DNA from: Mycoplana rhizolycopersici | GTDB lineage: Bacteria; Pseudomonadota; Alphaproteobacteria; Rhizobiales; Rhizobiaceae | DNA length: 64,000 nt | Reading direction: 5' to 3' | Assembly: GCF_013378445.1 (NCBI RefSeq) | Contig: NZ_JABXYK010000013.1 | Coordinates: forward strand, 62,001-126,000 | Part shown: piece by piece, positions 6,253 to 53,551 of the stretch | Layout: every line of letters begins with the position of its first letter | How positions within the stretch are numbered: position 1 is the first letter of the stretch | Notes under the pieces: model-generated | Database searches by the model: none | The model's input: only the letters and a program-made list of their open reading frames with translations | What the model was told of the DNA's origin: nothing | Translations under genes and position numbers: made by a program

Positions 6253-6276
6253 CGCCATGGGCAAAGCCGCCGCCTA

Positions 6277-36496: not shown

Positions 36497-36615
36497 GGGT
36501 GTCCTGTCCGAGGTATCCGGCTGCCGACGCATTTCGCGGCGCGGGACGAGGATAGGAATGTGCGACCAGCACGCCATCTATTTGGCGGCAGCGCCAGTCG
36601 CACGACGACAGTATC

Positions 36616-36633
36616 GGCCGGATAGCTCCGGCC
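36616..36633. repeat. Intergenic hairpin between binding-protein and permease genes
   Basis: GGCCGGA (36616-36622), loop TAGC, TCCGGCC (36627-36633) form a perfect 7-bp stem just downstream of the binding-protein stop on the minus strand. No T-run follows. It probably protects the upstream message or lowers readthrough into the permease genes. Confidence 0.55.
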
Positions 36634-36652
36634 TATGCACTCCTGACGCGGC

Positions 36653-37762: not shown

Positions 37763-37858
37763 GGCGGTTCCCCTTTTTTGCAATCTGTTCAAGCCAGGAA
37801 GCTCGATGCGGTTTCCTTGCCGATCGTCATGGAAGCAGACTATTGGATCGCCGTCAAG

Positions 37859-37874
37859 AAAGTGTCGACACTAT
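37859..37874. promoter_or_regulatory. GntR regulon operator, site 1
   Basis: The perfect 12-base palindrome AGTGTCGACACT is at 37861-37872, with AA in front and AT behind. It lies between the GntR stop and the binding-protein start, about 99 bases before the latter on the minus strand. The same palindrome recurs at 45850 and, with one change, at 50648. Its centre TGTCGACA has the GT-N-AC half-site form known for FadR-type regulators. Confidence 0.8.
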
Positions 37875-37909
37875 TGCGTTCAATTTTTGCGCAGGCTAGT
37901 TCTTCTTCC

Positions 37910-38668
37910 TCAGGCCCTTCGGCGGCGCGTCTTGGAGGATGCGTCGCCGGGGGCGAAAACCTTGAGCAGAGCGTCCTTCAACGCCTGCTGCGTCGCGGAG
38001 ACCGTCATCTCGATATGATTGCGCAGCAGTTCGACACCGCGTTCGATATCCCGGTTCATCGCGGCCTCGACGATGGCCGAGTGAGAGCTGACCTGCGCCT
38101 TGTCGTGCGTGCGGTGTTCGATCTGGATGCGCCGAATGAAGCGGATGCGCGCATTGATGGAAGACAGCTGATGAACAAGCTCGGGATTTCCCGAAAGCTC
38201 GGCGATCAGCAGATGGAAACCCTCGTCCTCCGCAAGGATGACATCCGGCGGGTGGTCCTGATAACCCTCGACGATGGCGGTCCAGTAGGCGCGCAGCCGC
38301 TCGATCTGATCGTCCTCTGCGCGCTGGCACATCAGCCTGAAGGCGGCGCATTCGATGATGGTGCGCAACTCGTAGAGGTCGAGCAACCCTTCGGTGCTGA
38401 GGCTGCGGACGAAAAAGCCCCTGTTCGGCGTCAGAGAAACGAACCCCTCCGAGGCGAGGCGGTTCAGGGCCTCGCGAATCGGCGTGCGGGATACGCCGAG
38501 GCTGCGGGAAAGCTGCACCTCGTTGATGCGCTCCTCGGGTTTCAGTTTGAATTCCACCAGAAGCTTGCGGATCGTATTGTACGCCCGCTCGCTGCTGTCT
38601 GCCGATCTGCGCGTCTCGCCCTCGGTCTGCGGATCGCTCAGGGCAATGATTTCGGATCGTTCGTTCAT
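37910..38668 (-). CDS. GntR family (FCD/FadR-type) transcriptional regulator
   Basis: Regulator of 252 aa. The N-terminal winged helix (about residues 22-90) includes VQLSRSLGVSRTPIREALNR and GFVSLTPNRGFFVR. The C-terminal FCD domain contains ELRTIIECAAFRL and the His-rich region EDEGFHLLIAELSGN, usual for ligand and metal binding. The ATG at 38668 has GGAGG 5 bases upstream. Palindromic sites upstream of three nearby transcription units and a weaker one in its own promoter region suggest it controls a regulon spanning about 31.8-52.3 kb. Confidence 0.9.
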   Translation of the reverse strand: MNERSEIIALSDPQTEGETRRSADSSERAYNTIRKLLVEFKLKPEERINEVQLSRSLGVSRTPIREALNRLASEGFVSLTPNRGFFVRSLSTEGLLDLYELRTIIECAAFRLMCQRAEDDQIERLRAYWTAIVEGYQDHPPDVILAEDEGFHLLIAELSGNPELVHQLSSINARIRFIRRIQIEHRTHDKAQVSSHSAIVEAAMNRDIERGVELLRNHIEMTVSATQQALKDALLKVFAPGDASSKTRRRRA

Positions 38669-38697
38669 AGGGCCTCCGGCGCGTTTCAGTCTGCGCT

Positions 38698-38707
38698 TTG
38701 TCGACAG
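38698..38707. promoter_or_regulatory. Weak GntR operator candidate in regulator/proC-like intergenic region
   Basis: TTGTCGACAG contains the core TGTCGACA (38699-38706) of the regulon palindrome but not its outer GTG/CAC bases. It lies 30 bases upstream of the GntR ATG and between it and the divergent ProC-like gene, so it would suit autoregulation. Confidence 0.45.
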
Positions 38708-38775
38708 ATTGTAATGCACCTTTCCCCCAGTTTCATGCGGTTGGCAAGCCGCGGCACGTCCTTGAGGAGTTGACG

Positions 38776-39537
38776 ATGATACTTGGTATCCTTGGCGTAG
38801 GGCATCTCGCCGCGACCATGCTCACGGGCTTGCTGAAGTCGGGTTTTGACCCGGCGAGCGTTCTTCTGTCTCCACGCGGGAAGGGGCGGGAGCTTTCGGC
38901 CCGACACGCAATTCCGCTGGCCGCCGACAACCGGGCGCTCGTCGAGAAGGCCGACGTCGTCCTGCTTGCGGTCCGTCCGGCAGACGCTTCGGCCGCCGTC
39001 GCCGACCTGCCGTGGCGAATGGGGCATGTCGTCATATCAGCATGTGCCGGCGTTGCGCTCGAGTGCCTGCCGGTCGCGCCGGCGCGGGCTGTCAGAGCGA
39101 TGCCGCTGACTGCCGCGGAGATCAATGCAAGCCCGACGGTTTGCTTTCCCGAGATAGCCGAGGCCAACATGGTTCTGGAGCGCCTGGGGCCCGTGATACC
39201 GCTCGCAAGCGAGGCTGACTTCGAGGTCGCCACCGTCAACGCCGCCGTCTATGGCTGGGCCCAGGACCTGATCCGGCGAACTGCGGAATGGTCCGCGCAA
39301 AAGGGCGCCGACGCGCAGGCGATGCGCCGCCTTGTTGCTCTGACGTTCGTGGCCGCAGGCCGCTTGATCGATGAAAAGCCCGATCCGATGGGCGCGCTCC
39401 TCGCCGATCTCGTGACACCCGGCGGCATTACCGAACTGGGGCTCGACGTCCTCGCCTCAGGTGGTCAGGCTGCGCTCTGGCAGGAGGCCTGCGAGGCAGT
39501 GCATGCGCGCCTCATCCGGGAAAGCGGGCCGGCTTGA
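38776..39537 (+). CDS. Pyrroline-5-carboxylate reductase family protein (ProC-like)
   Basis: NAD(P)H-dependent imine reductase of 253 aa, near the usual 260-270 aa. The Rossmann start is ILGVGHLAATML and the C-terminal family signature is DLVTPGGITELGLDVLASGG. GAGGAG lies about 7 bases before the ATG at 38776. ProC reduces a cyclic imine (pyrroline 5-carboxylate) to proline; relatives act on other imines. Divergence from the GntR gene and a shared control region suggest a specialised catabolic role and not proline synthesis, which is inference. Confidence 0.85.
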   Translation: MILGILGVGHLAATMLTGLLKSGFDPASVLLSPRGKGRELSARHAIPLAADNRALVEKADVVLLAVRPADASAAVADLPWRMGHVVISACAGVALECLPVAPARAVRAMPLTAAEINASPTVCFPEIAEANMVLERLGPVIPLASEADFEVATVNAAVYGWAQDLIRRTAEWSAQKGADAQAMRRLVALTFVAAGRLIDEKPDPMGALLADLVTPGGITELGLDVLASGGQAALWQEACEAVHARLIRESGPA

Positions 39538-39543
39538 CAGGCT

Positions 39544-40299
39544 TCAGGACTGACGTTTTGGCGCATCGGGATAGGTGTGCCCGCCAGCAGCCTGTTCGCT
39601 CGGGGTGACCACCAGTTCCGCAACGTCGACATGATCAGGCAGGCGGAGCGCCGAGACAAGAACCGCCGCGACGTCCTCGGGTCCGAGCGGACGCTGCCGC
39701 GTATACATCCGGTTTCGCAGCAGTTCCCGATCGCCGTCGAAAGCCTTCATGTAGAAGTCGGTTTCCACACGGCCCGGAGCAATCTCCGTCAGCCGGACGC
39801 CCGTTCCGGCGAGGTCGTAACGCAGGATACGCCCGGCCTGGGACAGGCCCGCCTTCGCAGCGCCGTAGGTCGTCGTTCCGGGAAAGACCGCACCGGCCGC
39901 CGTGCTCGTGAGGTTGAAGATGTGCCCGCGCCCTCGCTCAATCATGCCCGGCAGGACCAGGCGGATCATCTGCAGCGGGGCTGTCAGGTTCAGCGACACC
40001 ACCTCCGCCGTCTCCTCCGCGCTCTGCTCGTGCAGCGGTCGTACGGTCGCAAGCCCGCCGGCATTGTTGACGAGCACATCGACGGGAACGCCGTCCAGTT
40101 TCCGTGCGATGGCCTCATGGTCGCGTACATCCGCCGCCAGAGGCTTCAGGCGCGGGCCGAGCCGCGCGGCCAGACTTTCCAGCGCCGAAAGGTCACGCGC
40201 CAATGCGTGCACCGTCAGGCCTTCGTTCACCAGTGCCGCGGCGATCGCAGCGCCGATCCCCTTGGAGGCGCCAGTCACGAGGGCTGTACGGTATTCCAT
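39544..40299 (-). CDS. SDR family oxidoreductase
   Basis: Classical short-chain dehydrogenase of 251 aa with the cofactor motif TGASKGIGAAIA, NNAG (structural) and the active-site YGAAKAG (Y-x-x-x-K), plus a serine in NLTSTAAG. The ATG at 40299 follows GAGG. It is the last gene of the seven-gene minus-strand operon starting with the E1alpha-like gene and converges with the ProC-like gene only 6 bases away. It probably oxidises or reduces a hydroxy/keto intermediate. Confidence 0.9.
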   Translation of the reverse strand: MEYRTALVTGASKGIGAAIAAALVNEGLTVHALARDLSALESLAARLGPRLKPLAADVRDHEAIARKLDGVPVDVLVNNAGGLATVRPLHEQSAEETAEVVSLNLTAPLQMIRLVLPGMIERGRGHIFNLTSTAAGAVFPGTTTYGAAKAGLSQAGRILRYDLAGTGVRLTEIAPGRVETDFYMKAFDGDRELLRNRMYTRQRPLGPEDVAAVLVSALRLPDHVDVAELVVTPSEQAAGGHTYPDAPKRQS

Positions 40300-40324
40300 G
40301 ATCTTCACCTCAATTTTGCTATTT

Positions 40325-41248
40325 TCAGAGAGCGCCGCGTTCGGCGATCGTTTTCAGGATCCCGACGAGACCGGCCTCGCGGTCGTCCTTCAGTTCCGCC
40401 TGGGTGCGGCCGCGAACGGCCTGCGCGGTCGAACCGGTGACGGTGCGGATCGTCTCGTCGTCCAGCTTGGCATCGAGAAGCGTATCCCAGATCGCCTGGT
40501 AGGTCGGGCCGTACTTCCGGAGGAAATCCTCCATGCCGTCAGCATTCAGCTGGTTGGAAATGAAGGAGCCCTGCAACGTCCATTTCGGACCCGGGCCGTA
40601 CATGAAGGCGCGATCGACATCCTCGACGGACGCCACGCCGTCGCGCACGAGCGCGATCGCTTCGCGCCACATCGCCCCCATGAGGCGCAAGGCGAGGTGG
40701 CCGGTGATTTCGCGGTTGAGAACGACCGGCTTCTTGCCGATGGCTTCGTAGATGGTGCGCGCCCGAAGGAGCGACGTCTCGGTCGTGTCGCGCCCGCCGA
40801 CGATTTCGACCAGAGGCATGAGATGCACCGGATTGAAGGGATGGCCGAGGACGATGCGGCCGGGCACACGGCAATCCGCCTGCATGTCGGATACGATCAG
40901 CGCGGAAGATGATGAGGCTATCACCACCTCGTCGTCGATATGCGCCTCAATCTCGGCCAGCAGCCGCCGCTTCAGCGAGAGGTCTTCCGGGCCGTTTTCC
41001 TGAACGAAACCTACGCCGGCAAGTGCATCCGCCAGCGTCGCGAAAATGTCGATGGGGCCGGGCTCGGCGATCCGTCCGCTAACCGCGTCCAGATCGGCCA
41101 TCAGCCCCGGTTGCGCGGCCCGGAACGCCTGCGTGCGGCCGTCCCCCGGATCATACACGCGCACGGGATGGCCGGCATGGGAAAAAGCCGCCGCCCAACG
41201 TTGTCCGATCACCCCAAAACCAACGATGCCGACAGGCTGCTTTTCCAT
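40325..41248 (-). CDS. 3-hydroxyacyl-CoA dehydrogenase-like NAD-dependent dehydrogenase
   Basis: Protein of 307 aa with an N-terminal Rossmann domain (GFGVIG, 10-15), the active-site region SSSSAL and GHPFNPVHLMPLVEIVGG with the catalytic histidine, and a C-terminal helical domain. Length and sequence fit the lambda-crystallin, L-gulonate 3-dehydrogenase and carnitine 3-dehydrogenase branch, whose substrates are free beta-hydroxy acids and not CoA esters. It sits in the operon with the E1/E2 complex. The exact substrate is unknown. Confidence 0.9.
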   Translation of the reverse strand: MEKQPVGIVGFGVIGQRWAAAFSHAGHPVRVYDPGDGRTQAFRAAQPGLMADLDAVSGRIAEPGPIDIFATLADALAGVGFVQENGPEDLSLKRRLLAEIEAHIDDEVVIASSSSALIVSDMQADCRVPGRIVLGHPFNPVHLMPLVEIVGGRDTTETSLLRARTIYEAIGKKPVVLNREITGHLALRLMGAMWREAIALVRDGVASVEDVDRAFMYGPGPKWTLQGSFISNQLNADGMEDFLRKYGPTYQAIWDTLLDAKLDDETIRTVTGSTAQAVRGRTQAELKDDREAGLVGILKTIAERGAL

Positions 41249-41258
41249 TTCCCTATCC

Positions 41259-42113
41259 TCAGTCCAACGCTTTGCGGAAGGCCTCGTTAAGGTCGTTCCA
41301 CGGTATCAGGAGGTCGATCCAGGCGCCGATGCGGCCGGCAGCGAGTATCGCTTCATCGATGAGGGAATCGAAAGGCAGGTCTTCCGCCATGGCCGCTTCC
41401 AGACGGAACAGAAGCGCCGGCGTTTCTTCCATGTGGCAGAAGTCGCGAAGCCGCGTTGCGGTCTTGTTCAACGCCAGCGCCGCCGTCTGCCGCAGGACGT
41501 CTTCGTCCCGTTTTCCGCGCTCGGCGCGCACCCACCAGAGGAGTTCGTGAAGAACCCGCGCTTCGGCCTCTGCTGCAAAGACCGGCCCGGCCGGATGCAT
41601 GATCGCACGCGAGGCGGTGATACCGCCGATGTCCGCCGGGCAGGCGGCCCAGAGTTTCGCGCGCGCCGACAGGATGTCGGGCGGCAGAAGCTGGGTTGCT
41701 TCGGGTACGGACGATTGCCGGTCGGCGCGCTCGAGCGTGCCGCTCAGGATGCGGCGGCCCTGCTCGTGCTTCAGCGTCCTGGCCAGTGCCGCGATGCCTT
41801 CGATCGGGGCATCGAGATGACCAAGTACGGTGATCTCAGCGTTCTCTGCCTGCAAGGGAGCAAAGGTGATTTCCAGGAACTGACGGACAGGCCAGTACAG
41901 AAACGCTCCCGGCGCTGCCGAAAGCACATGGGTCGCCCCTTCGACATCTTCCACAAACGGCGCGTGCCAGTAGATATGGCTGCCGGCGATCTTGGGTGTG
42001 TGGAGTTGCAACGGCAGCGGCAGTGCGTTCAGAAGAGCGCGCTGTGTGCGTTCGGCGTTGCCGTTCAGCCGCAGTGGCCAGCTCTGGCCTTCGGCCGAAA
42101 ATATGAGGTGCAT
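41259..42113 (-). CDS. Uncharacterised protein, possibly cyclophilin-like N-terminal domain
   Basis: Soluble protein of 284 aa with no signal peptide or membrane span. The first about 130 residues (start LIFSAEGQSWPLRL, then AGSHIYWHAPF) faintly resemble the small cyclophilin-like family DUF3830, seen beside amino acid importers. The remaining half is helix-rich with conserved-looking WWVRAERGKRDE and no motif I recognise. The ATG at 42113 follows GGGAAG; the long upstream reading frame overlaps the NIPSNAP gene and is rejected. It lies between the NIPSNAP and dehydrogenase genes. Function not assigned. Confidence 0.75.
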   Translation of the reverse strand: MHLIFSAEGQSWPLRLNGNAERTQRALLNALPLPLQLHTPKIAGSHIYWHAPFVEDVEGATHVLSAAPGAFLYWPVRQFLEITFAPLQAENAEITVLGHLDAPIEGIAALARTLKHEQGRRILSGTLERADRQSSVPEATQLLPPDILSARAKLWAACPADIGGITASRAIMHPAGPVFAAEAEARVLHELLWWVRAERGKRDEDVLRQTAALALNKTATRLRDFCHMEETPALLFRLEAAMAEDLPFDSLIDEAILAAGRIGAWIDLLIPWNDLNEAFRKALD

Positions 42114-42115
42114 TC

Positions 42116-42439
42116 TTACTTCCCGGGATTGAAAAAGGGGACGGGTTTGAGGATCTGGTTTCGCATGTCGAGCAGGTAGTCGGTCTCGATCACCTTGCGG
42201 CGGTAGGCCTGCCATTCCGGATCGGCCTCCATGCGGTCGCGACGTTCCTCGCGGTCGGCGAGGCTGTCGTACTTCCAAAGGTGGACCGTGCGGGAGAGAT
42301 CGCCGATATGCGTCTGGAAGAAGCCGAACGGCTCGCCGAGATAGTGGCGCTGCATCGGCAGGCCGACATCCTCGTAGAGCTTCAGAAAGTGCGGCAACAT
42401 GTTCGGGCGGGCCGTGTAGGTGCGATGATCAAAGATCAT
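42116..42439 (-). CDS. NIPSNAP family protein
   Basis: Small dimeric alpha/beta-barrel-type protein of 107 aa, recognised by the start MIFDHRTYTARPN, the middle LGEPFGFFQTHIGDL, then HLWKYDSLADRE and QNQILKP-like end. Members are often found in catabolic operons and may bind or isomerise small aromatic or keto intermediates, but their role is mostly unproven. The ATG at 42439 follows GGAG. It ends 2 bases before the unknown gene starts. Confidence 0.86.
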   Translation of the reverse strand: MIFDHRTYTARPNMLPHFLKLYEDVGLPMQRHYLGEPFGFFQTHIGDLSRTVHLWKYDSLADREERRDRMEADPEWQAYRRKVIETDYLLDMRNQILKPVPFFNPGK

Positions 42440-42459
42440 TTTCGTACTCCTTCGGGATC

Positions 42460-42476
42460 GATGGCACTGTGCCATC
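42460..42476. repeat. Intercistronic hairpin
   Basis: GATGGCA (42460-42466), loop CTG, TGCCATC (42470-42476) form a perfect 7-bp stem between the E2-like and NIPSNAP genes of the same operon. It may mark a processing or stability point. Confidence 0.5.
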
Positions 42477-42517
42477 CCGCACATGCGGAACGGCGATGAC
42501 GTATTGGCCGACGCCGG

Positions 42518-43852
42518 TCAGCCGGCGCTCCGAAGTGTTTCGGCAATGAGGCGCGCGGTGAGCTCGGGCGCTTCCATCTGCGGCACGTGGCCGACACCGT
42601 CGAGCAGGTGGACCGCCGCCGAGCCGGGCGCGCGCAAACTGTGCGCATGCGGGATCACCCGGTCCGAGCGGCCCCACACGATGCGCGTCGGCACCGACAC
42701 CCGCCGCAGGGCAGACAGCAGATCGAAGGCCTGCGTGCCGCCCGCAAAGAGTCGTTCGGCAAGGGCTGCCAGCACCGCTTTTTGTCCGTTCCGCTCCATG
42801 CTTCTCAGAACGGCACGCGCGTAGCCCTGCGGCAGCACGTTGGGGTCGGCGACCATCACGGAAAGCCAGCGCTCCAGTGCTTCGGCGGTCGTGGAGCGGG
42901 TCAGGCCACCGATGAAGCCGGCGTTGATTTCCGGGCCCAGACCTCCGGGAGCAAGCAATGTCAGCGACCGGACTGCGACACGGCCAAGGGCGGTCAACGC
43001 CAGCGCCGTGGCACCGCCGAGCGAGTGGCCCACGAGGTGGCTCCGCTCGATGCCCAGAGCTTCGATCCGGTCGGAAACGTCGAGCGCCAGGTCTTCGATC
43101 CCCTGTGCGGAGCGGCCGGTTTCTGCGCCGTGGCCGGGCAGATCGAGCGTGATCGTCTCGAATTCGGCCGGCAGAAGCGGCAGCACCTGCCGCCATGCCG
43201 AGCGGTCGGCGCCGAAACCGTGCAGCAGGATCACCGGATCGGCTTTGCGAGTGACGCTGGAAACCACCGGTGCCTGCGGTGCGCCCCCGGCCGTGGACGC
43301 TACTTGCGGCGCGGCGGAAGCAACCGGCGAAGCGATTGCCGGCTGCTCGCCCCTTGCGGACAAGGCCGCGGCCACGTCGCGCTGCTTGATGCGTCCGCGC
43401 GGACCGGAACCGGAAATGCCGCAAAGGTCGAGGCCGGCTTCCCTTGCAAGACGCCGCGCAAGCGGGCTTGCAATGACCCGACCTCCGGCCACCGCGGCAG
43501 GTGCGCCTGCCTCAGACGAGGCACCTTCGGCCGTGGCCGCGGCCATGACCGGCGCCGGGGCGGCCAGAGGTCGGGACTTCGGCCCGCCAGCCGAAGCATC
43601 TGCAGGTTTCGTATCCGAGATGGTGCCCAGGACCGCGCCGACCGGCGCTTCCTGGCCTTCAGAGAAGAATGTTTCTGCGAGCCAGCCGTCGCGTTCGGCT
43701 GCGACCTCGGTTGCGGCCTTGGCCGTTTCTACGGTGACAATCAGCTGGCCGGCCTTCACCGGCTCGCCGGGCTTCACCGCCCAGTCGAGGACGAGCACGG
43801 ACTCCATGTACTCGCCGCCGGCGCTTTCGATGCTGATCGGATGGTTCGCCAT
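42518..43852 (-). CDS. acoC: Acetoin dehydrogenase-like E2: lipoyl domain fused to alpha/beta hydrolase
   Basis: Dihydrolipoamide acyltransferase-type subunit of 444 aa. Residues 1-80 form a lipoyl domain with the lipoylated K45 in ETAKA. An Ala/Pro-rich linker follows, then an E3/E1-binding domain at about 126-165 (ASPLARRLAREAG and GPRGRIKQRDV). Residues 205-444 are an alpha/beta-hydrolase unit with S277 (GHSLGG), D397 and H422, in place of the usual acyltransferase domain. This layout is that of AcoC in acetoin cleavage systems. It works with the E1 subunits upstream; no E3 (lipoamide dehydrogenase) gene is in the operon, so a shared one is probably used. Confidence 0.9.
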   Translation of the reverse strand: MANHPISIESAGGEYMESVLVLDWAVKPGEPVKAGQLIVTVETAKAATEVAAERDGWLAETFFSEGQEAPVGAVLGTISDTKPADASAGGPKSRPLAAPAPVMAAATAEGASSEAGAPAAVAGGRVIASPLARRLAREAGLDLCGISGSGPRGRIKQRDVAAALSARGEQPAIASPVASAAPQVASTAGGAPQAPVVSSVTRKADPVILLHGFGADRSAWRQVLPLLPAEFETITLDLPGHGAETGRSAQGIEDLALDVSDRIEALGIERSHLVGHSLGGATALALTALGRVAVRSLTLLAPGGLGPEINAGFIGGLTRSTTAEALERWLSVMVADPNVLPQGYARAVLRSMERNGQKAVLAALAERLFAGGTQAFDLLSALRRVSVPTRIVWGRSDRVIPHAHSLRAPGSAAVHLLDGVGHVPQMEAPELTARLIAETLRSAG

Positions 43853-43864
43853 TCCGCGTCTCCG

Positions 43865-44839
43865 TTACTTCAGCGTTGCGAGCGCGGCTGCGCGGATCTT
43901 TTCCGCATTGGGCAGCATCGCCACTTCAAGCGGTTCGGAATAGGGGATCGGCATGTCGGGCAGCGTCACGCGCGCAACCGGCGCGTCGAGTTCGTCGAAT
44001 GCGTGATCCATGATCGTCGCCGATAATTCGGCCGCGTAGCCGCAGAAGCGCCAGCCCTCGTTGACGACGACCGCATGGTGCGTCTTGGCGATCGAGGTGA
44101 CAATGGCATTGACGTCGAGCGGGCGCAGCGAGCGCAGGTCGATGACTTCTGCGGAGACACCGTCCGCGGCCAAAAGTTCGGCTGCCTTCCTGGCTTCCAC
44201 GACCATCTTCGAGGTGGCAAAAATCGACACGTCATTACCGTCGCGCACGGTCGCCGCCTTTCCGAGCGGCACGGTCACGTCGCCGTCCGGCACTTCGCCA
44301 CGAATGTTGTAGAGAAGCTTGTGCTCCAGGAACACGACCGGCTGGTCATCGCGGATCGCCGCCTTCAGCATGCCCTTCGCATCGGCCGGCGTCGACGGTG
44401 CGACCACCTTGATGCCGGGGATATGGGCGAGCATCGAATCCAGCGCCTTTGAATGCTGCGCCCCGGCGCCCGCGCCGCCGCCGCCCTGCGTGCGCAGCAC
44501 GAACGGCATCTTCACCTGGTCGTTCCAGATGTAGTTGTAGATCGAAGCCTGGTTGACCAGGGCGTCGAGCGTCAGCGGAACGAAGTCCGCATACATGATC
44601 TCCAGCACCGGCCGAGTGCCGGTCATCGCGGCCGTGACCGCCATGGCCGTCAGCGCCTGCTCCGAGATCGGCGTGTCGCGAACGCGGCTTTCGCCGAACT
44701 CCTCCATCAGGCCTTTCGACACCTTGAAGACACCGCCATAGCGGCCTATGTCCTCGCCGAAGAGAAAGACGGACGGATCAGCCAGCATTTCCTCGCGAAG
44801 CGCGGCGTTGAGCGCTTCGGCATATCGCATAAGGGCCAT
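43865..44839 (-). CDS. acoB: Thiamine-dependent dehydrogenase complex E1 beta subunit (AcoB-like)
   Basis: Transketolase-like subunit of 324 aa. Landmarks are FGEDIGRYGG, RDTPISEQALTAMAVTAAMT, the GGGGAGAGAQHSKALDSMLAHI stretch and the C-terminal transketolase domain with PDMPIPYSEPLE. It forms an alpha2beta2 E1 with the gene upstream, decarboxylating or cleaving a keto substrate with ThDP and passing the acyl or hydroxyalkyl group to the E2 lipoyl arm. The ATG at 44839 is 2 bases after the E1alpha stop. Confidence 0.92.
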   Translation of the reverse strand: MALMRYAEALNAALREEMLADPSVFLFGEDIGRYGGVFKVSKGLMEEFGESRVRDTPISEQALTAMAVTAAMTGTRPVLEIMYADFVPLTLDALVNQASIYNYIWNDQVKMPFVLRTQGGGGAGAGAQHSKALDSMLAHIPGIKVVAPSTPADAKGMLKAAIRDDQPVVFLEHKLLYNIRGEVPDGDVTVPLGKAATVRDGNDVSIFATSKMVVEARKAAELLAADGVSAEVIDLRSLRPLDVNAIVTSIAKTHHAVVVNEGWRFCGYAAELSATIMDHAFDELDAPVARVTLPDMPIPYSEPLEVAMLPNAEKIRAAALATLK

Positions 44840-44841
44840 GT

Positions 44842-45813
44842 TCAGAGCGCCTCGCTGTAGGGATTGCAATTTTCGTCGATGCTGAACTCCGGCATCGGAT
44901 CGGAAAGCGCAGTTGCGAAGGCCGCATCGACTTCCGCCTTTGCCGCAGCTTCGATTGCGGCGAGCCTGTTCTCACCGACTTCGCCCAGAAGCGCCTTGCG
45001 CGAAACGAGCAGCGGGTCGCGCTCCTTCCAGGAGGCGATATCCTCCGGTTTCTGGTAGCCGCCCATGTCGGAGGTGGAGAAGCCTTCCAGGCGGTAGGTC
45101 TTGCACTCGACCATGCCGGGACCTTCGCCGCGGCGGGCGCGATCGACCATCGAAGAAACGGCGCGATAGACCGCGACCGCGTCGTTGCCGTCGACGATCT
45201 CGGCCGGCATCGCATATCCTGCCGCGCGGACCGAAAGGTCTTCGACAGGCGACTGGACGTCGGAGGGAACCGTGAGGCCGAACTGGTTGTGTTCCAGCAC
45301 GAAGACGACGGGGAGCTTCCACAGCCCGGCCATGTTCATCGCTTCGTGACAGATGCCGGTCTGGGCCGCACCATCGCCGAATACGCACATGGCGACGTTC
45401 TTCTGGCCGAGCACCTGCATGGAAAGCGCCATGCCAGCGGCTGCCGGAATACCGGCGCCGACGATGGCGTTGCCGCCGATGACGCCCTTGTCCGCATCAG
45501 CGACCAGCATGTGACCGGCGCGGCCGGCGCAGGCGCCGGTGGCACGGCCAAAGATTTCAGCGATAACCGGATAGGGATTCATGCCCTTGCCGATGTAGAC
45601 GGCATGACCGCGGTGGGTGGTCGCCACCTTGTCGCCGGCTTCAAGCACGGCGGTAGCGGCAACGCCGACAGCCTCCTGCCCATCGCAGCGATGGATCGGG
45701 CCGCGCGTGCGCCCTTCCTTGTGAAGGGCGCCGAGGCCCTCTTCGAGATGCCGGACCAGCAGCATCTTCCGGTAGATTTCCAGATGCTCTTCTACTGAAG
45801 GTGTGTTCTTCAC
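44842..45813 (-). CDS. acoA: Thiamine-dependent dehydrogenase complex E1 alpha subunit (AcoA-like)
   Basis: ThDP-binding subunit of 323 aa with GDGAAQTG (146-153) through N176, the ThDP/Mg motif, and GRAGHMLVADADKG. The likely start is GTG at 45813, because GGAGG lies 6 bases before it; the ATG at 45831 has no good ribosome site. It is the first gene of a seven-gene operon. The regulon palindrome at 45850 lies about 42 bases upstream, placing the complex under the GntR regulator. Related complexes cleave acetoin or pyruvate; the substrate here is unproven. Confidence 0.92.
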   Translation of the reverse strand: MKNTPSVEEHLEIYRKMLLVRHLEEGLGALHKEGRTRGPIHRCDGQEAVGVAATAVLEAGDKVATTHRGHAVYIGKGMNPYPVIAEIFGRATGACAGRAGHMLVADADKGVIGGNAIVGAGIPAAAGMALSMQVLGQKNVAMCVFGDGAAQTGICHEAMNMAGLWKLPVVFVLEHNQFGLTVPSDVQSPVEDLSVRAAGYAMPAEIVDGNDAVAVYRAVSSMVDRARRGEGPGMVECKTYRLEGFSTSDMGGYQKPEDIASWKERDPLLVSRKALLGEVGENRLAAIEAAAKAEVDAAFATALSDPMPEFSIDENCNPYSEAL

Positions 45814-45847
45814 GGATGCCTCCAAATGCATGCAGCAATTTAATACA

Positions 45848-45863
45848 AAAGTGTCGACACTTT
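45848..45863. promoter_or_regulatory. GntR regulon operator, site 2
   Basis: AAAGTGTCGACACTTT is a perfect 16-base palindrome, the longest of the regulon sites, with core AGTGTCGACACT at 45850-45861. It lies between the divergent E1alpha-like operon and the SDR gene and is well placed to repress both. Confidence 0.82.
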
Positions 45864-45913
45864 GCAAGGGCTTCTGCAAGATTGGATGTGGTCAATTGAA
45901 AAAGGGGACCGAA

Positions 45914-46660
45914 ATGCGATTGAAGGACAGGGCCGCCATCGTCACCGGAGCAGGTGCGGGCATAGGAGCGGCCACCGCGGAACTCTTCGCCCGGGAAGGA
46001 GCGCGCGTGCTCGTGGTGGACCGCGACGGCGAACGGGCAAGGCAGACAGCCGATCGAATCGGCGCGCAAAGTCTGGCGGTCGATGTCTCCGACGAAACGC
46101 AGGTGGCGAACATGGCGCGCTTCGCAAACGAGCGCTTCGGCGGCATCGACATCCTCGTCAACAATGCCGGCTACGGCTTTCGGGGCACGGTCGTCACCAT
46201 CGAGGCGAGCGACTGGGATGCCTTGATGGCCGTGAACCTGAAAGGCGTGTTCCTGTGCTCGAAACACGTCATTCCCGTCATGGCTTCATCCGGCGGCGGC
46301 GCCATCGTCAACACCGCCTCGAACGTTGCCCAGATCGGCCTGGCCGATCGGGCAGCCTATGTCGCGTCGAAGGGCGGCGTCGCCGCGCTGACGCGGGCGA
46401 TGGCCCTCGATCACGCCGGGCAGAACATTCGGGTGAACGCGGTGGCGCCCGGAACGACCTGGTCGAGCTACTTCGACGATATCCTCGAGAACCATCCCGA
46501 CCCCGAGGGTTTCCTCGCAGGCTTGAATGCGCGTGCGCCCATGAATCGCGTTGCCCAGCCGATCGAAATCGCGCAAGCGATCCTATGGCTTGCCAGCGGC
46601 GAGTCGTCCTTTGCGACCGGCTCGATCCTCACCGTCGATGGCGGCATGACCGCCTGGTAG
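45914..46660 (+). CDS. SDR family oxidoreductase
   Basis: Classical short-chain dehydrogenase of 248 aa with TGAGAGIGAATAE, NNAGYG, the catalytic YVASKGG and a C-terminal TVDGGMTAW. The acidic VVDRDGE after the second strand favours NAD over NADP. GGGGA lies 7 bases before the ATG at 45914. It is divergent from the E1alpha-like gene, sharing the palindromic operator, and converges with the B12-domain gene. Confidence 0.91.
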   Translation: MRLKDRAAIVTGAGAGIGAATAELFAREGARVLVVDRDGERARQTADRIGAQSLAVDVSDETQVANMARFANERFGGIDILVNNAGYGFRGTVVTIEASDWDALMAVNLKGVFLCSKHVIPVMASSGGGAIVNTASNVAQIGLADRAAYVASKGGVAALTRAMALDHAGQNIRVNAVAPGTTWSSYFDDILENHPDPEGFLAGLNARAPMNRVAQPIEIAQAILWLASGESSFATGSILTVDGGMTAW

Positions 46661-46673
46661 AGGTTTTTGGCCC

Positions 46674-48413
46674 TCAGGCAGGCTGAAAGGTCTTTCTGAG
46701 GGCTCCGAGCATCTGGTCGAGATCGGTGCAGGGGCTGCATCCGAGTTCGGAGATTTCGCGGGTCACATCGACCGGCAGACCCGAATTCGAATCCTTCGGC
46801 ACCTCGTTCAGCCGCCCTCCGATCAGCACGGGAAGCCGAATAGATTGCTTCTCCATCGCCGTTTTGACGGCCTTGGCATAGGAATAGGCAACGCCATTAT
46901 ACGTGCTGATGGCAATGGCATCGGCACCGGCCTCCATTGCGCGTGCGACCAGCACTTCCGGATCGACCGCCACCCCGGCGTCGACGATGCCGATCCCCAG
47001 CCCTTCGAGAGCCTGTTCGACCAGATACTTGCCGTGTTCGTGCACGTCCGTCGTACCGATGCAGACCGAGATCGGCCCGGTAGTGGCGATCGGCTTCTGG
47101 CCTGCCACCCAGACCTCCGCCTTGTCGTTGAGTTCGCGCGCCCATTCCGCATGAATCAGTGGCTTGCGACCGCGTGCGGTCTCCGCGCCAGGGCCGAACA
47201 GCATCTCCATGCGTTTCGGCCCCATGCGGCGGATCGCCAACATCAGTGCGGCCGGATCCTTCGTGTCGACGCCCCGATCCGCAAGGCCGGCAAGGACGGC
47301 GGCTGCGAAACGCCCGCCGCCTTCCACCAGGACGTCGGCCATGGCCTCGACCTTCGACCAGTCGTACACCGGATCGTAGAACGGGGCATGCAGGGTCAGC
47401 CGGTGGGCGAAGGTCTGCGCATCGATGATCTCGTCGACATCCGGGATGCGCTGGTTCTCGGTCACCGGCACGGGATTGATCGCATGACCCGCGGGCCACC
47501 GGCCAAGTGCCAGAATGTCGGCCAGCAGATAGCTCGCAAGGCTCGCATAGTTCCCGGCAGGGCTCGACTGATAGGCAACCGTATTGCCGAAGATCATCGT
47601 GCCGGGCGTATCGTTGACGCGGACGAGCGCGGCATGGAACGCGGTTCGCGATAGCGGGTCGCTGAAATGGTGCCCGTAGCAATGCGCCAGCTTTGCGCCG
47701 ATCAGGTCTTCGACGATGTGCTTTTCGATCAGCACCATGCCCAGCGCGCAAGCCATGTCGATGAAGAGGCCGGCAAAGCCATCGTCGAGATTGGAATGGA
47801 CAAGGATTTCGGCGTCCTGCGCGGCAATGAGACCGAGGGCGGTCACGGTCGCCTCGGTGGTGGCCACGTCGTCGTCCCAATAGGGCAGCCGGAAGGTGAA
47901 GTACTGGCCGAGATTGCCGACGGCGGTCGCGCCGGCCGCAATCGCGGCCCGGGTGTTTTCGACTGCGCCCGGCAGCCCGAGCATGAAATCGCCGAAATGG
48001 GCCGCGGCAGGGGCCGCATTCGTTATGCGCGCGAAATCCTCCGGCCCGGACAGGACGATGCCCGTGCCGCGCGACGCCTTGGCGCGCATGGCTTCCGGAT
48101 AGCCCATCGACCAGTCCAGGGTGATGCCAAAGCGATCGACGGTCGTCCCGTTTCGGGCGCACGTGCCGTGAACTTCGCGGATAGCCTCGATCGTCCGGTT
48201 GACATCGCGAAAACCGATATGGGCGTGCTGCATGATGCGCTTGTCGGCCATGGCCTTGCGCTTCCAGGCGGCCTCGGAAGGGACGCCTTTCTCCGACAGG
48301 AACAGGCAGCTTCCAACGCGCCAGTCGCGCGCCATGGCCCGCCCTGCGGAGAGAAGGTCGGCGCCGGGCGTAAGGCGCGGGTCAACAAGGGTAAGCAAGG
48401 TCTCAGCTGTCAT
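46674..48413 (-). CDS. Fused barrel plus B12-binding protein, probable cobalamin-dependent mutase
   Basis: Protein of 579 aa. Residues about 450-579 are a cobalamin-binding domain with the exact base-off/His-on pattern: D456-V-H458-E-H-G461, 41 residues, S503-T-Y, 26 residues, G532-G533. This pattern is typical of adenosylcobalamin mutases such as glutamate mutase and of methionine synthase. The first about 440 residues look like an alpha/beta barrel and only faintly resemble glutamate mutase E. The chain would thus unite what are two subunits elsewhere. It is the last gene of the cupin operon. A carbon-skeleton or amino migration role is inferred; substrate unknown. The ATG at 48413 gives the natural start. 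Confidence 0.85.
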   Translation of the reverse strand: MTAETLLTLVDPRLTPGADLLSAGRAMARDWRVGSCLFLSEKGVPSEAAWKRKAMADKRIMQHAHIGFRDVNRTIEAIREVHGTCARNGTTVDRFGITLDWSMGYPEAMRAKASRGTGIVLSGPEDFARITNAAPAAAHFGDFMLGLPGAVENTRAAIAAGATAVGNLGQYFTFRLPYWDDDVATTEATVTALGLIAAQDAEILVHSNLDDGFAGLFIDMACALGMVLIEKHIVEDLIGAKLAHCYGHHFSDPLSRTAFHAALVRVNDTPGTMIFGNTVAYQSSPAGNYASLASYLLADILALGRWPAGHAINPVPVTENQRIPDVDEIIDAQTFAHRLTLHAPFYDPVYDWSKVEAMADVLVEGGGRFAAAVLAGLADRGVDTKDPAALMLAIRRMGPKRMEMLFGPGAETARGRKPLIHAEWARELNDKAEVWVAGQKPIATTGPISVCIGTTDVHEHGKYLVEQALEGLGIGIVDAGVAVDPEVLVARAMEAGADAIAISTYNGVAYSYAKAVKTAMEKQSIRLPVLIGGRLNEVPKDSNSGLPVDVTREISELGCSPCTDLDQMLGALRKTFQPA

Positions 48414-48426
48414 GGCGGCTGTCCGG

Positions 48427-49218
48427 TTACAATTTGGCGATGAAGCGGCGAAATTCGGCAGCGAAGCTGTCCGGGTCGGTAAACGGGTGAAAATGCGCGC
48501 CACGGACGGTTACGAACTCCGCACCGGCAATTGCTGTCGCCACCGCCCTGGATAGTTCGGGCGGCGTCAGGATGTCGTCGACGGCGGCGATCACCTGGAC
48601 CGGACTCCTGATGCTTGAGAGGTCTGCCAGACGATCATGATCGAGCAGCATGCGCACGCGTGCCGCCGCGACGTCGAGCGGGGCGAGATTTCGAGGAGCA
48701 TCCGCCACTGCGGCGTCCAGCTTTGCGGCGTGGGCCGTCAACCAGGCCGACGTATGCCCGAAGACATGCGTCAGCCGCTGGTAGGTTTCCGCCTGTCCCG
48801 CTTCCAGCATCTCGGCGCGGGCAATGAACAGCGTGCGGAACCGCGCGTCCGATCGCGCCCAGGAACTGCTGATCGTATAGCTCAGGCCTTTGATATCGTG
48901 ATCCAGCGCAAGGACCTGTGCGATCGCTCCACCGGTGGAATGGCCGACGACATGGACCGGTTCACCCCATTGATGGACGATGCCTGCGACATCTGCGGCA
49001 CTCCGGGGGATCGAATAGCCTCCGGGCGGCCGGTCGCTTCGCCCCGCCCCGCGGTGGTCCGCAACCACCAGGCGGAACTCCGTCTGAAGCCGCTGGACGA
49101 CGCCGCCCCAGAAACGTCCGTCGCCGCCAAGGCCCGGGATCAGCAGAACCCGCGGCCCCGTTTCGCCAAAAGTCTCGTAGTGTATCCGGCAGCCATCCGG
49201 CGCTGTATAAGTCGCCAT
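48427..49218 (-). CDS. Alpha/beta-fold hydrolase (RutD / enol-lactonase-like)
   Basis: Serine hydrolase of 263 aa with LLIPGLGGDGRFW, nucleophile S94 in VGHSTGG, an aspartate in AVDDILTP and a histidine in RGAHFHPF. It resembles 3-oxoadipate enol-lactonase and RutD-type enzymes acting on lactones, enols or carbamoyl compounds. Its ATG shares a base with the stop of the aspartate-dehydrogenase-like gene (TGATG) and the B12-domain gene starts 13 bases after it. Confidence 0.89.
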   Translation of the reverse strand: MATYTAPDGCRIHYETFGETGPRVLLIPGLGGDGRFWGGVVQRLQTEFRLVVADHRGAGRSDRPPGGYSIPRSAADVAGIVHQWGEPVHVVGHSTGGAIAQVLALDHDIKGLSYTISSSWARSDARFRTLFIARAEMLEAGQAETYQRLTHVFGHTSAWLTAHAAKLDAAVADAPRNLAPLDVAAARVRMLLDHDRLADLSSIRSPVQVIAAVDDILTPPELSRAVATAIAGAEFVTVRGAHFHPFTDPDSFAAEFRRFIAKL

Positions 49219-50036
49219 CAGCCGTTTTTCCCCGCGTCCAGCACGGTTTCCAGCGCCGACAGCAGGCTCAGCGCCGTGATCGCGGACGTCTTCGGGTTGT
49301 CGGGGGAGGGGGTGTTCACGAAGCGCATGAAAGCCGTGCCTGCGGAGCTTGCAGCTTCGATCTCGTGCGTATTTCCTTCCACCTTCGGGTCGGCGACGAC
49401 GCGAACGGTGAGCGACCGGGGACGAACGGCCAGGGATATTGCCAGCGCTGCATTCAAATTCTTCGGAAAGCGGCGCGCGGCCTCTTCGGGCGCACCCTCG
49501 AAAAGCACGACCTCTGTCGACGGTGCTGTCACTCCCAGCCTTTCAAGCTCTGACGCCCAAGCGGCCACGGGCTTGCGCGACGTGTAGCGAATCTCCGCAT
49601 CCTCCAGCCTCGCGACGGCGCCGAGGTAGTCGAGCCCTCCCACCGAACCGGCGGGAAGCACAAGCGGCGCGCCCGATGCGTTCCGCGCTGCGTCCAGCCT
49701 GAGACAGAGCTCCGGATCGGCGAGTACGCCGACCGATGCCAGAACGACGGGAATTCCGGCTTCCAGCAGTTGCGGCACGCAGTCGGCCGCAGCATCCTGC
49801 GTCGCAACCTCGACTACCGCGCGTGGCCGGGCCGCGACCAGTTCTTCGATACGCGTCACAAGGCGGACGTTTTCTGCGGATTGCGCGAGACGGCGATCGT
49901 TCCGCACCAGAACGACCCACTCCGCCTCGCCGGGTCCGAAACCGGCAATGAGGCGGTGTGCCAGCGCGCCGAACCCGATGAGGCCGAGTGTGACGGGAGC
50001 GGAGCGCTTTTGGTCCGGCGCGGCAAGCGAAGGCAT
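49218..50036 (-). CDS. Aspartate dehydrogenase-like NAD(P)-dependent enzyme
   Basis: Protein of 272 aa with an N-terminal Rossmann fold (GFGALA, 21-26), PAGSVGGLD (128-136), PKNLNAALAISLA (191-203), KVEGNTHEIEA with the likely catalytic H224, and NPKTSAITALSLL. These are the hallmarks of L-aspartate dehydrogenase (NadX/AspDH), which deaminates aspartate to iminosuccinate or oxaloacetate. Here it lies in a catabolic operon without NAD-synthesis genes, so it probably acts on aspartate or a close analogue from the pathway. Confidence 0.88.
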   Translation of the reverse strand: MPSLAAPDQKRSAPVTLGLIGFGALAHRLIAGFGPGEAEWVVLVRNDRRLAQSAENVRLVTRIEELVAARPRAVVEVATQDAAADCVPQLLEAGIPVVLASVGVLADPELCLRLDAARNASGAPLVLPAGSVGGLDYLGAVARLEDAEIRYTSRKPVAAWASELERLGVTAPSTEVVLFEGAPEEAARRFPKNLNAALAISLAVRPRSLTVRVVADPKVEGNTHEIEAASSAGTAFMRFVNTPSPDNPKTSAITALSLLSALETVLDAGKNG

Positions 50037-50039
50037 GAA

Positions 50040-50573
50040 TCAGTCGCCCTTCACCGGGTCGAACTTGTCGGCAAGGTCGGTGCCGAACACCGTCTGGCGT
50101 TCGATTTCCAGCACGTTCTCCGGCCGGGGAAAGTTCGAGGGAACGCGGTCGCCCGGCTTGCGGGGCCTGCCGATCAGCCGGAAGAAATCCTCAAGCCCGT
50201 TGGGAACGATCAGCCAGACCCAGCGCAGGCGCGTCTCGCCATCGTTGATGAACATGTGTCGCATGTTCTTCGGCAGGAAGATCGCGCTGTCCGGGCCGAT
50301 CGGATACTCCTTGCCGTCGATCACGGCGCGGCCGTGCCCTTCGATGACATAGACGGCTTCCTCATTGTGTTCGTGGGTATGTTCGCGCACATAGCCGCCG
50401 GGCGCCACCGATTGGGTGCCCATGCCGAAAGGCGATTCCATGCCGACGATATGCGGCGCCAGCGCGACATCGACATGGCCGTTGGCCGGCACCGGCTGCC
50501 AGTAGCTTTCGCGTGCTTCGGGACCGGAAACATGGACACCGGCGAGAACGGGCGGAATGCGGGTCTCGTCCAT
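50040..50573 (-). CDS. Cupin domain protein
   Basis: Protein of 177 aa with a single cupin barrel. The metal-binding motif is EHTHEHNEEAVYVIEGHG (H-x-H-x4-E type) in strand region one and NMRHMF in region two. Small cupins of this form are metal-dependent isomerases, lyases or sensors; the exact role is not visible. It is the first gene of the operon cupin - aspartate-dehydrogenase-like - hydrolase - B12 protein. The regulon palindrome at 50648 lies 75 bases upstream. Confidence 0.88.
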   Translation of the reverse strand: MDETRIPPVLAGVHVSGPEARESYWQPVPANGHVDVALAPHIVGMESPFGMGTQSVAPGGYVREHTHEHNEEAVYVIEGHGRAVIDGKEYPIGPDSAIFLPKNMRHMFINDGETRLRWVWLIVPNGLEDFFRLIGRPRKPGDRVPSNFPRPENVLEIERQTVFGTDLADKFDPVKGD

Positions 50574-50645
50574 TTTTTACACCTGTCGGATAAGGACCCC
50601 GAAGGGTCTCATGGTACATCGTGACCTGTGAAAGCTATATCGCAA

Positions 50646-50661
50646 AAAGTGTCGACACAAT
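50646..50661. promoter_or_regulatory. GntR regulon operator, site 3
   Basis: AAAGTGTCGACACAAT at 50646-50661 has the core GTGTCGACAC (50649-50658) of the regulon palindrome with one change in the outer ring. It lies between the divergent cupin gene and the KstD-like flavoprotein gene. Confidence 0.76.
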
Positions 50662-50721
50662 AGTAGACAGATTAAATGCGGTGCTTTTATAGTGCCGCGA
50701 CGCGGTGAATGGGGAATAGAT

Positions 50722-52326
50722 ATGGAAGCTTGGGACGTATTGGTCATCGGTTCCGGTTCGGCGGCTTGCGCATCGGCGCTGCGAGCAGCCAAGGGCGGAT
50801 TGAAGGTGCTCGTCATCGAGAAGAGCGAATGGCTCGGCGGCACCTCGGCCATGTCGGGCTCAGGCATCTGGATTCCGGCCAATCACGTGGCCGCGGCCGC
50901 CGGCATCGCCGACAGTCGAGATGAAGCGATCGCGTACCTGCGCGCGGTCACGCCCGAGGGGTGGGCAGAGAAAGAAGACGCGCGCTGGGTTTCCTTCGTC
51001 CAGTCCGCGCCGGATATGCTCCGTTTTCTGTCCGATAACACCCCGCTCGACCTGCGCGTCGTAGCCGAGCCCGATCCTTATGCCGAGGCACCGGGAGGCA
51101 AGATGGTCGGACGCATGGTGTCGCCGATGCCGCTCAGCCGCCGCATCCTGGGCCGCTTCGCACCCCGGCTGCGGCGTTCGACGCTGCCCCATACCTTTAC
51201 CTATCAGGAGGTCGTCGATCTCGACCTCTACCACCACCCCATCCGCGCCGGGCTGCGCATGTGGCCGAAGCTGCTTTGGCGTTGGCTGACCAATTCCGGC
51301 GGCCAGGGCACCGCCCTGATGACGGGCCTGGTCAAGGGCTGCCTCGACGCCGGTGTGACCTTCTGGCTCGAAACCCGCGCCATTCGCCTCATTCAGGATT
51401 CCGACGATCGCATCGTGGGTGCGGAAGTGGAGCGCCAGGGACAGCGGCAGACGATTGCCGCCGAGCGCGGCGTCGTGATCGCGACCGGCGGGTTCGAGTG
51501 GGACCCACAGATGCGCGAACGCCATTTTCCCGGCCCGCTCGACCGTATCGGCAGCCCGCGCAGCAACGAAGGCGATGGGCAGAAGCTCGCAGCCTCGGTC
51601 GGCGCAGAGCTTGACCGCATGGACCAGGCCAATATCTATCCCTGCCTGCCGACACGCTACCAGGGCAAGCAGCACGGCCTTCCGATGACCTTCCAGGCCG
51701 AACCCCATTCAATCGTGGTGAACCGGCATGCGAAGCGCTTCGTCAGCGAGAACGACTTCAACATCGGCGAGGTGCTGGACGAGCGGGATGCCAATGGCGC
51801 GCCGGTGCACCTGCCATGCTTCCTGGTCGGCGATCACCGGTTCCTGAAAACTTCGATCCCCTTCCGCTGGTATTCCTCCTACGACCGCGACTGGGTGAAG
51901 ACGGCGGATACGGTTCCCGAACTCGCAGCCAAGCTCGGCCTGCCGGCCGACGCGCTCGTCGAGACCATCAACCGCTGGAACGAGTTCTGCAAGACCGGCC
52001 ATGATACCGACTTCAAGCGCGGCGAGAACGGCTGGGAAGCCTACAAGGCGCACGGCGACGAGAACCGCCTGAAGCCGATCGACAAGGCTCCCTATGTCGG
52101 CATGACGATCAACCGTTCCATTCTCGGCACGAAGGGCGGCGCGCGCACCAACGACAAGGGCCAGGTCCTGCGCGCCGACGGCTCGCTGATCCCGGGCCTC
52201 TATGCGGCGGGCCTCGCCATGGCCAACCCGTTCGGTACCCGCGCTGTCGGCGCAGGCACGACCATCGGCCCGAACATGACCTGGGGCTACATCGCCGCCG
52301 AGGCCATCCTTCGGCAGAACCGCTGA
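50722..52326 (+). CDS. FAD-binding dehydrogenase, KstD/fumarate-reductase-like
   Basis: Flavoprotein of 534 aa. It starts with the dinucleotide-binding DVLVIGSGSAACASAL, followed by GGTSAMSGSGIWIP. The C-terminal KGGARTNDKGQVL and GAGTTIGPNMTWGYIAAE complete the FAD site, as in 3-ketosteroid-delta1-dehydrogenases and related FAD_binding_2 enzymes. No steroid gene is nearby, so it more likely desaturates or reduces another alpha,beta-position of a keto or acid intermediate. GGGGAA lies 7 bases before the ATG at 50722. It is divergent from the cupin operon and shares operator site 3. Confidence 0.88.
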   Translation: MEAWDVLVIGSGSAACASALRAAKGGLKVLVIEKSEWLGGTSAMSGSGIWIPANHVAAAAGIADSRDEAIAYLRAVTPEGWAEKEDARWVSFVQSAPDMLRFLSDNTPLDLRVVAEPDPYAEAPGGKMVGRMVSPMPLSRRILGRFAPRLRRSTLPHTFTYQEVVDLDLYHHPIRAGLRMWPKLLWRWLTNSGGQGTALMTGLVKGCLDAGVTFWLETRAIRLIQDSDDRIVGAEVERQGQRQTIAAERGVVIATGGFEWDPQMRERHFPGPLDRIGSPRSNEGDGQKLAASVGAELDRMDQANIYPCLPTRYQGKQHGLPMTFQAEPHSIVVNRHAKRFVSENDFNIGEVLDERDANGAPVHLPCFLVGDHRFLKTSIPFRWYSSYDRDWVKTADTVPELAAKLGLPADALVETINRWNEFCKTGHDTDFKRGENGWEAYKAHGDENRLKPIDKAPYVGMTINRSILGTKGGARTNDKGQVLRADGSLIPGLYAAGLAMANPFGTRAVGAGTTIGPNMTWGYIAAEAILRQNR

Positions 52327-53446: not shown

Positions 53447-53551
53447 GCGTTCCTCTTCGGCCGTCCTGCACCCTGCACAAGGAAATTGCAATGCTCCAAA
53501 GATGAGCAAAATCGCAAAATCAATCCTTGACGCCACGCGGCTTTAAATCAA

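Follow-up and report, generated by a model that had tools for sequence, protein, structure and literature searches.

A window of 64,000 nucleotides from Mycoplana rhizolycopersici (contig NZ_JABXYK010000013.1, positions 62,001 to 126,000 of the forward strand) was analysed for a palindrome that recurs around the gene of a GntR/FCD regulator, and that a sequence-only reading of this DNA had proposed to be the shared operator of a local regulon. Annotation with Pfam and NCBIfam outlined a gene island from about 31772 to 52326, consisting of 21 genes in seven predicted units. These units and the adjoining LacI-type gene are as follows.

31772..37762, minus strand: operon A, six genes for a solute-binding protein (SBP), two binding-protein-dependent (BPD) permeases, two ATP-binding cassette (ABC) ATPases, and a DAO-type FAD oxidoreductase (Pfam)
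37910..38668, minus strand: GntR/FCD (FadR-subfamily) regulator (Pfam GntR and FCD)
38776..39537, plus strand: pyrroline-5-carboxylate reductase (P5CR)-like, ProC-type reductase, divergent from the regulator gene (Pfam F420_oxidored and P5CR_dimer)
39544..45813, minus strand: operon B, seven genes for E1alpha, E1beta, an acetoin-type E2, NIPSNAP, a cyclophilin-like protein, a 3HCDH/carnitine-dehydrogenase-like protein, and a short-chain dehydrogenase/reductase (SDR1) (Pfam/NCBIfam)
45914..46660, plus strand: SDR2, divergent from operon B (Pfam adh_short_C2, 2e-65)
46674..50573, minus strand: operon C, four genes for a cupin, an aspartate-dehydrogenase (AspDH)-like protein, an alpha/beta hydrolase, and a B12-binding mutase-like protein (Pfam)
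50722..52326, plus strand: KstD-like FAD dehydrogenase (Pfam FAD_binding_2, 4e-65)
52388-53536: gene of a LacI-type protein, adjoining KstD

The sequence-only reading had tied about 18 genes in five units to the sites; the count was corrected to that given above. The ProC-type NCBIfam matches of the P5CR-like reductase all fell under their cut-offs, and the nearest NCBIfam model of the KstD-like protein, 3-oxosteroid 1-dehydrogenase, was likewise matched below its cut-off. No prp (2-methylcitrate cycle) gene was found among the annotated genes between 31772 and 52326, and a search of the open-access literature for the gene combination of the island returned no paper. The gene order of operon A matched that of a Neorhizobium locus (L080; loci of relatives are numbered in this way below).

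The motif sites in the window were located as follows.

37861..37872, no strand: putative operator 1, AGTGTCGACACT, a perfect palindrome before the SBP transport operon
38699..38706, no strand: putative operator 4, the reduced core TGTCGACA, between the divergent GntR and P5CR genes, 31 bp before the GntR ATG
45850..45861, no strand: putative operator 2, AGTGTCGACACT, a perfect palindrome between the divergent E1alpha operon and SDR2
50648..50659, no strand: putative operator 3, AGTGTCGACACA, one change from AGTGTCGACACT, in the cupin/KstD gap
50662..50669, plus strand: conserved half-site AGTAGACA, 12 nt from the centre of operator 3, overlapping the -35 box TAGACA

The coordinates and sequences reported earlier for the four operators were exact, and their placement in non-coding control regions was borne out: all four lay between assigned genes, in the gaps from the GntR stop to the SBP start, from GntR to P5CR, from E1alpha to SDR2, and from cupin to KstD. 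Each of the four, whether full operator or core alone, is placed ahead of predicted units. A fifth copy of the 8-bp core in the window (12652-12659), absent from the earlier list, was rejected as a regulon member, as it lies within an ABC ATPase-like reading frame and is coding.

The specificity of the motif was examined in the window and then by pattern scans of the whole 5.6-Mb genome. In the window alone, the 12-mer with up to two mismatches was not significant (20 of 100 shuffles reached three matches), whereas the exact 8-bp core was (none of 100 shuffles reached five). As the window-only statistics of the 12-mer were unconvincing by themselves, genome-wide counts were used in their place. 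The perfect 12-mer occurred twice in the genome, both times in this cluster. Three further 12-mers had one mismatch; one of them is operator 3, and the others, on contigs 2 and 30, lay inside long open frames. The open-frame test for the coding status of remote sites was dropped, since long spurious frames also covered two of the true operators. With the pattern AAGTGTMKACAC, which allows any GT-MK-AC centre, the three full operators were the only matches. Many sites of equal quality at random positions would have spoken against a local regulon; these scans found no such background.

The regulator was searched against 84,980 species genomes, which yielded 18 loci. The island was present in 13 of these, namely in twelve Rhizobiaceae (71-97% identity of the regulator) and in one Methylobrevis (55%). 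The SBP and E1alpha operators were perfect in all twelve Rhizobiaceae loci, and when the 13 whole genomes of these relatives were scanned with AGTGTCGACAC, 35 of the 46 sites were SBP, E1alpha, or KstD operators, leaving about one site elsewhere per genome. Conservation was measured in anchored alignments, in which non-coding columns more than 35 nt away served as the background. Over 13-15 loci, the mean identity of the 12-mers was 98-99%, compared with 49-56% in distal non-coding DNA: operator 1 showed 99% column identity against 53% (15 aligned loci), operator 2 showed 99% against 56% (14 loci), and operator 3 showed 98% against 49% (14 KstD promoters). Loss of the palindrome from orthologous loci, the other result named beforehand as contrary to the proposal, was thus not observed. 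The half-site beside the KstD operator (GTaGACAGA) was also conserved in 14 loci. At operator 4, the eight core bases were invariant in 13 loci and the outer bases were poorly conserved; L077 carries TGTAGACA in place of this core. The putative autoregulatory site beside the regulator start is an 8-bp core only.

The operators also followed their genes through rearrangements. In most relatives, KstD is the first gene of a KstD-cupin-AspDH-hydrolase-B12 operon, on one strand with the genes that follow it, and the operator lies about 70 bp before it. KstD is inverted in the window, L052, L057, and L077, and in each case the operator has moved along with it. The divergent cupin/KstD region had been regarded as a common control region; given the usual arrangement in the relatives, with the operator ahead of KstD and KstD leading the cupin operon, conservation supports the KstD side and gives no support to the cupin side. 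In Shinella UYSO24 (L071), KstD lies on a different contig with its operator kept, and was found only through the operator in the pattern scan. In L007 and L008, where E1alpha, E1beta, and E2 have been lost, the operator with its ACTTTTGTATT flank stays before the next gene of the operon. In L007 (around 5915-6550), the operator, the promoter, and a stub of the first E1alpha codons are left, and judging from this arrangement the region is a recent deletion scar. Both the KstD and the cyclophilin-like gene operators of Shinella H4-D48 (L078) read GTGTCTACAC, in which CT replaces CG in the centre and GT-N2-AC is kept. Methylobrevis (L018) has two palindromes 23 bp apart (10752 and 10775) before the SBP operon, the second within the -35/-10 spacer. 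In their restriction to the cluster and their conservation ahead of orthologous genes, the operators behave as those of a local regulon would.

The presence of the motif was associated with that of the regulator gene. Among 200 genomes of the family, the 12-mer occurred in all four that have an orthologue of the regulator and in 8 of the 196 that do not (Fisher p 7.7e-6); the latter held nine perfect 12-mers in total. The genes of more distant regulator homologues (L020-L022, 39-42% identity) occur without the island and are preceded, at a distance of about 95-160 bp, by CTGTATACAG, in which the GT-N2-AC spacing is kept and the centre is different. The identity of the DNA-binding domain was 87-100% among operator-bearing Rhizobiaceae orthologues and 70% in Methylobrevis, compared with 52-66% in homologues without the operators.

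Pfam analysis of the regulator indicated an N-terminal GntR winged helix-turn-helix and a C-terminal FCD domain (8.1e-16 and 1.7e-24, respectively, both above cut-off). It has the domain architecture of the FadR (FCD) subfamily, and its palindromes have the GT...AC form with a spacing of 2 or 3 that characterises this subfamily, being GT-CG-AC throughout except for GT-CT-AC in two Shinella operators. The best NCBIfam match, PhnR (TIGR03338), scored 94.5 bits, far from the equivalog cut-off of 271.5. The metal-site pattern of the FCD domain (D148xxxH152, H196, and H218), which lines a putative metal/carboxylate pocket, was invariant in 20 homologues; by analogy, this invariance makes a small carboxylate-type effector likely.

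In a comparative study of the FadR subfamily (PMC4494728), two spacing groups are distinguished, and the GT-N2-AC group comprises GntR, HpxS, HypR, MdcY, PrpR, and UxuR. The earlier assignment to FadR-type palindromes held at the level of the subfamily; the spacing is the GT-N2-AC of PrpR and not the GT-N3-AC of Escherichia coli FadR. Among the closest known systems is PrpR of Pseudomonas, a GntR/FCD regulator of the methylcitrate cycle (PMC9765439). PrpR of P. aeruginosa is a repressor with the predicted motif ATTGTCGACAAT, and its own upstream region was bound in an electrophoretic mobility shift assay (PMC9765439). Both systems have an FCD-type regulator, a site before its own gene, a local catabolic operon, and a 12-nt GT-N2-AC palindrome with central TGTCGACA; the two motifs differ at the second and eleventh bases, one change per half. 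In contrast to PrpR, the present regulator is not linked to 2-methylcitrate cycle genes, and is associated with another pathway that includes an ABC uptake system and with several separate operators over 13 kb. The members HypR, GntR, UxuR, MdcY, and HpxS share with it the geometry, a single site common to both genes of a divergon, and an adjacent box, whereas the passages of that study that were consulted mention neither the present consensus nor this gene content (PMC4494728). E. coli FadR resembles it in domain architecture, in operators overlapping or next to the -35 box, and in a possible dual action, and differs in its GT-N3-AC sites (PMC4494728) and in its fatty acid genes. A search of the open-access literature for the exact 12-mer AGTGTCGACACT returned no paper. 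The class of motif is already known, and this set of regulator and operators appears to be a further example of it.

Next, the sites were related to promoters. The aligned promoters were scored with the Sinorhizobium meliloti consensus CTTGAC-N17/18-CTATAT (PMC4696191) and with the E. coli consensus, which gave the following predictions.

37829..37858, minus strand: predicted SBP promoter, CTTGAC N18 TTCCAT with a weak -10 box, best-scoring in a 17-sequence alignment; operator centre at about -44
45840..45868, minus strand: predicted E1alpha promoter, CTTGCA ... TATTAA in the conserved CTTGCAAAGTGTCGACACTTTTGTATTAAATT, the top promoter offset; operator 2 in the spacer
50664..50693, plus strand: predicted KstD promoter, TAGACA-N18-TATAGT, with the highest mean match (9.4/12 over 14 loci); operator centre at about -46

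Weaker boxes adjacent to GntR-family sites, 7-12 nt from the centre, are reported in PMC4494728.

From the sites, which are specific in the genome, conserved, linked to the regulator gene, and set in definite positions with respect to the predicted promoters, we infer that the GntR/FCD protein encoded at 37910-38668 is very probably the local, pathway-specific regulator of the catabolic island, and that the consensus recognised by its dimer is the GT-N2-AC palindrome AAGTGTCGACACTT with the core TGTCGACA. This agrees with the original proposal of a local regulon, for which genome-wide specificity and conservation at orthologous promoters argue. The dimer would bind the palindrome at the promoters of the cluster. 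The E1alpha operator occupies the spacer between the predicted -35 and -10 boxes, where bound regulator would block RNA polymerase, and this position points to repression. At SBP and KstD, the operator would act from a position immediately ahead of the -35 box or in contact with it, and the weaker core-only site may allow autoregulation of the regulator gene. An effector, probably the substrate or an intermediate of the pathway, would bind the FCD metal site and release the operators, so that uptake and catabolism are turned on together. The regulator most likely works by repression that an effector relieves.

Several points weigh against this interpretation. The site at the regulator gene itself is no more than an 8-bp core, the flanks of which are poorly conserved; L077 has an altered form of it or none, and so has L018. 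Descent or transfer accounts in part for the presence of the cluster in the relatives, and the co-occurrence of genes and sites is therefore not independent in each genome; since the genomes are partly dependent, more weight falls on the rearranged loci and on the contrast with nearby non-coding DNA than on mere presence. The operator centres near -45 at SBP and KstD are also compatible with activation. Finally, the promoters come from prediction, and the proposed regulon is deduced from sequence.

The main alternative to repression throughout is that the same GntR protein activates SBP and KstD, or has a dual action on them, and confines repression to E1alpha and its own gene, in the manner of E. 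coli FadR at its different promoters. In favour of this, the operator centres at SBP and KstD lie upstream of the predicted -35 boxes in a position that hardly varies among the relatives, each of the two promoters has an imperfect -10 or -35 box, and the additional conserved half-site overlaps the -35 box of KstD. However, the E1alpha operator is inside its promoter, the second SBP operator added in L018 is inside the -35/-10 spacer, and repressors are numerous among the characterised FCD regulators of catabolic genes. PrpR, an FCD-type regulator of catabolic genes, is among the repressors (PMC9765439). Overall, we consider activation at SBP and KstD rather unlikely, although worth keeping in view.

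That another protein binds the palindrome, either the LacI-type protein or a different GntR protein of the genome, seems very improbable. The LacI-type gene adjoins KstD, and CG-centred palindromes are also found among LacI operators; however, no LacI homologue was present in any of the orthologous clusters fetched, although the operators were all there, and the single weak LacI match (27%) was in L023, a locus without the cluster. The neighbouring LacI-type protein was rejected as the binder on this ground. The motif is of the GT-N2-AC form, and every cluster with sites contains the GntR gene, apart from clusters split between contigs. Fetching by a GntR query biases this comparison of clusters, but the independent screen of 200 family genomes agrees with it. 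A chance or non-regulatory repeat (a SalI-like sequence, or a recombination or partition site) can practically be dismissed: GTCGAC is common in G+C-rich DNA and the window-only statistics of the 12-mer with two mismatches are weak, but the genome-wide count, the promoter positions, the conservation against background, and the tracking of genes exclude it.

Among the products of the island, the B12 protein (46674-48413, minus strand, 579 aa) has a C-terminal B12-binding domain with the DxHxxG motif (D456/H458/G461). Its N-terminal part of about 440 residues matched no sequence family in Pfam, NCBIfam, or PDB. The structure model was of low confidence (pLDDT 60) and matched B12 mutases with a TM-score of about 0.3, so that the resemblance to these enzymes is only a hint. 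Tentatively, the catabolic pathway under control of the regulon may be one not described so far, with a B12-dependent mutase of a new family at its central step. An acetoin-type dehydrogenase complex, the KstD-like dehydrogenase, the P5CR-like reductase, and a branched-chain-type uptake system would act alongside this enzyme, and the substrate may be a cyclic amino or imino acid.

A reduced island was found in L078, L081, and L082, comprising KstD, the B12 protein, the cyclophilin-like protein, P5CR, GntR, the ABC transporter, and DAO, without the E1/E2, cupin, and AspDH genes; it is probably the functional core of the pathway. On a plasmid of Phyllobacterium zundukense (L079), a homologue of the B12 protein with 50% identity stands beside a P5CR-like gene and a different GntR gene, with amino acid ABC transporter, proline racemase, and DapA-like genes as further neighbours, a context that suggests an amino or imino acid substrate. 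In L018 (4382-6038), the B12 protein matched at 58% over its N-terminal half and at only 34% over the remainder, a pattern that looks like an exchange of the C-terminal half.

The island is patchily distributed, as the four orthologues of the regulator among the 200 family genomes indicate, and a specific, testable operator and a candidate regulator can now be named for it. As a regulatory finding it is of an ordinary kind and unusually clean, the three full operators being the sole matches of their motif in the genome. The operators and the FCD regulator would mark a co-regulated set of genes, so that de-repression of the regulator or a screen for its effector would lead directly to the substrate and to the role of the B12 protein.

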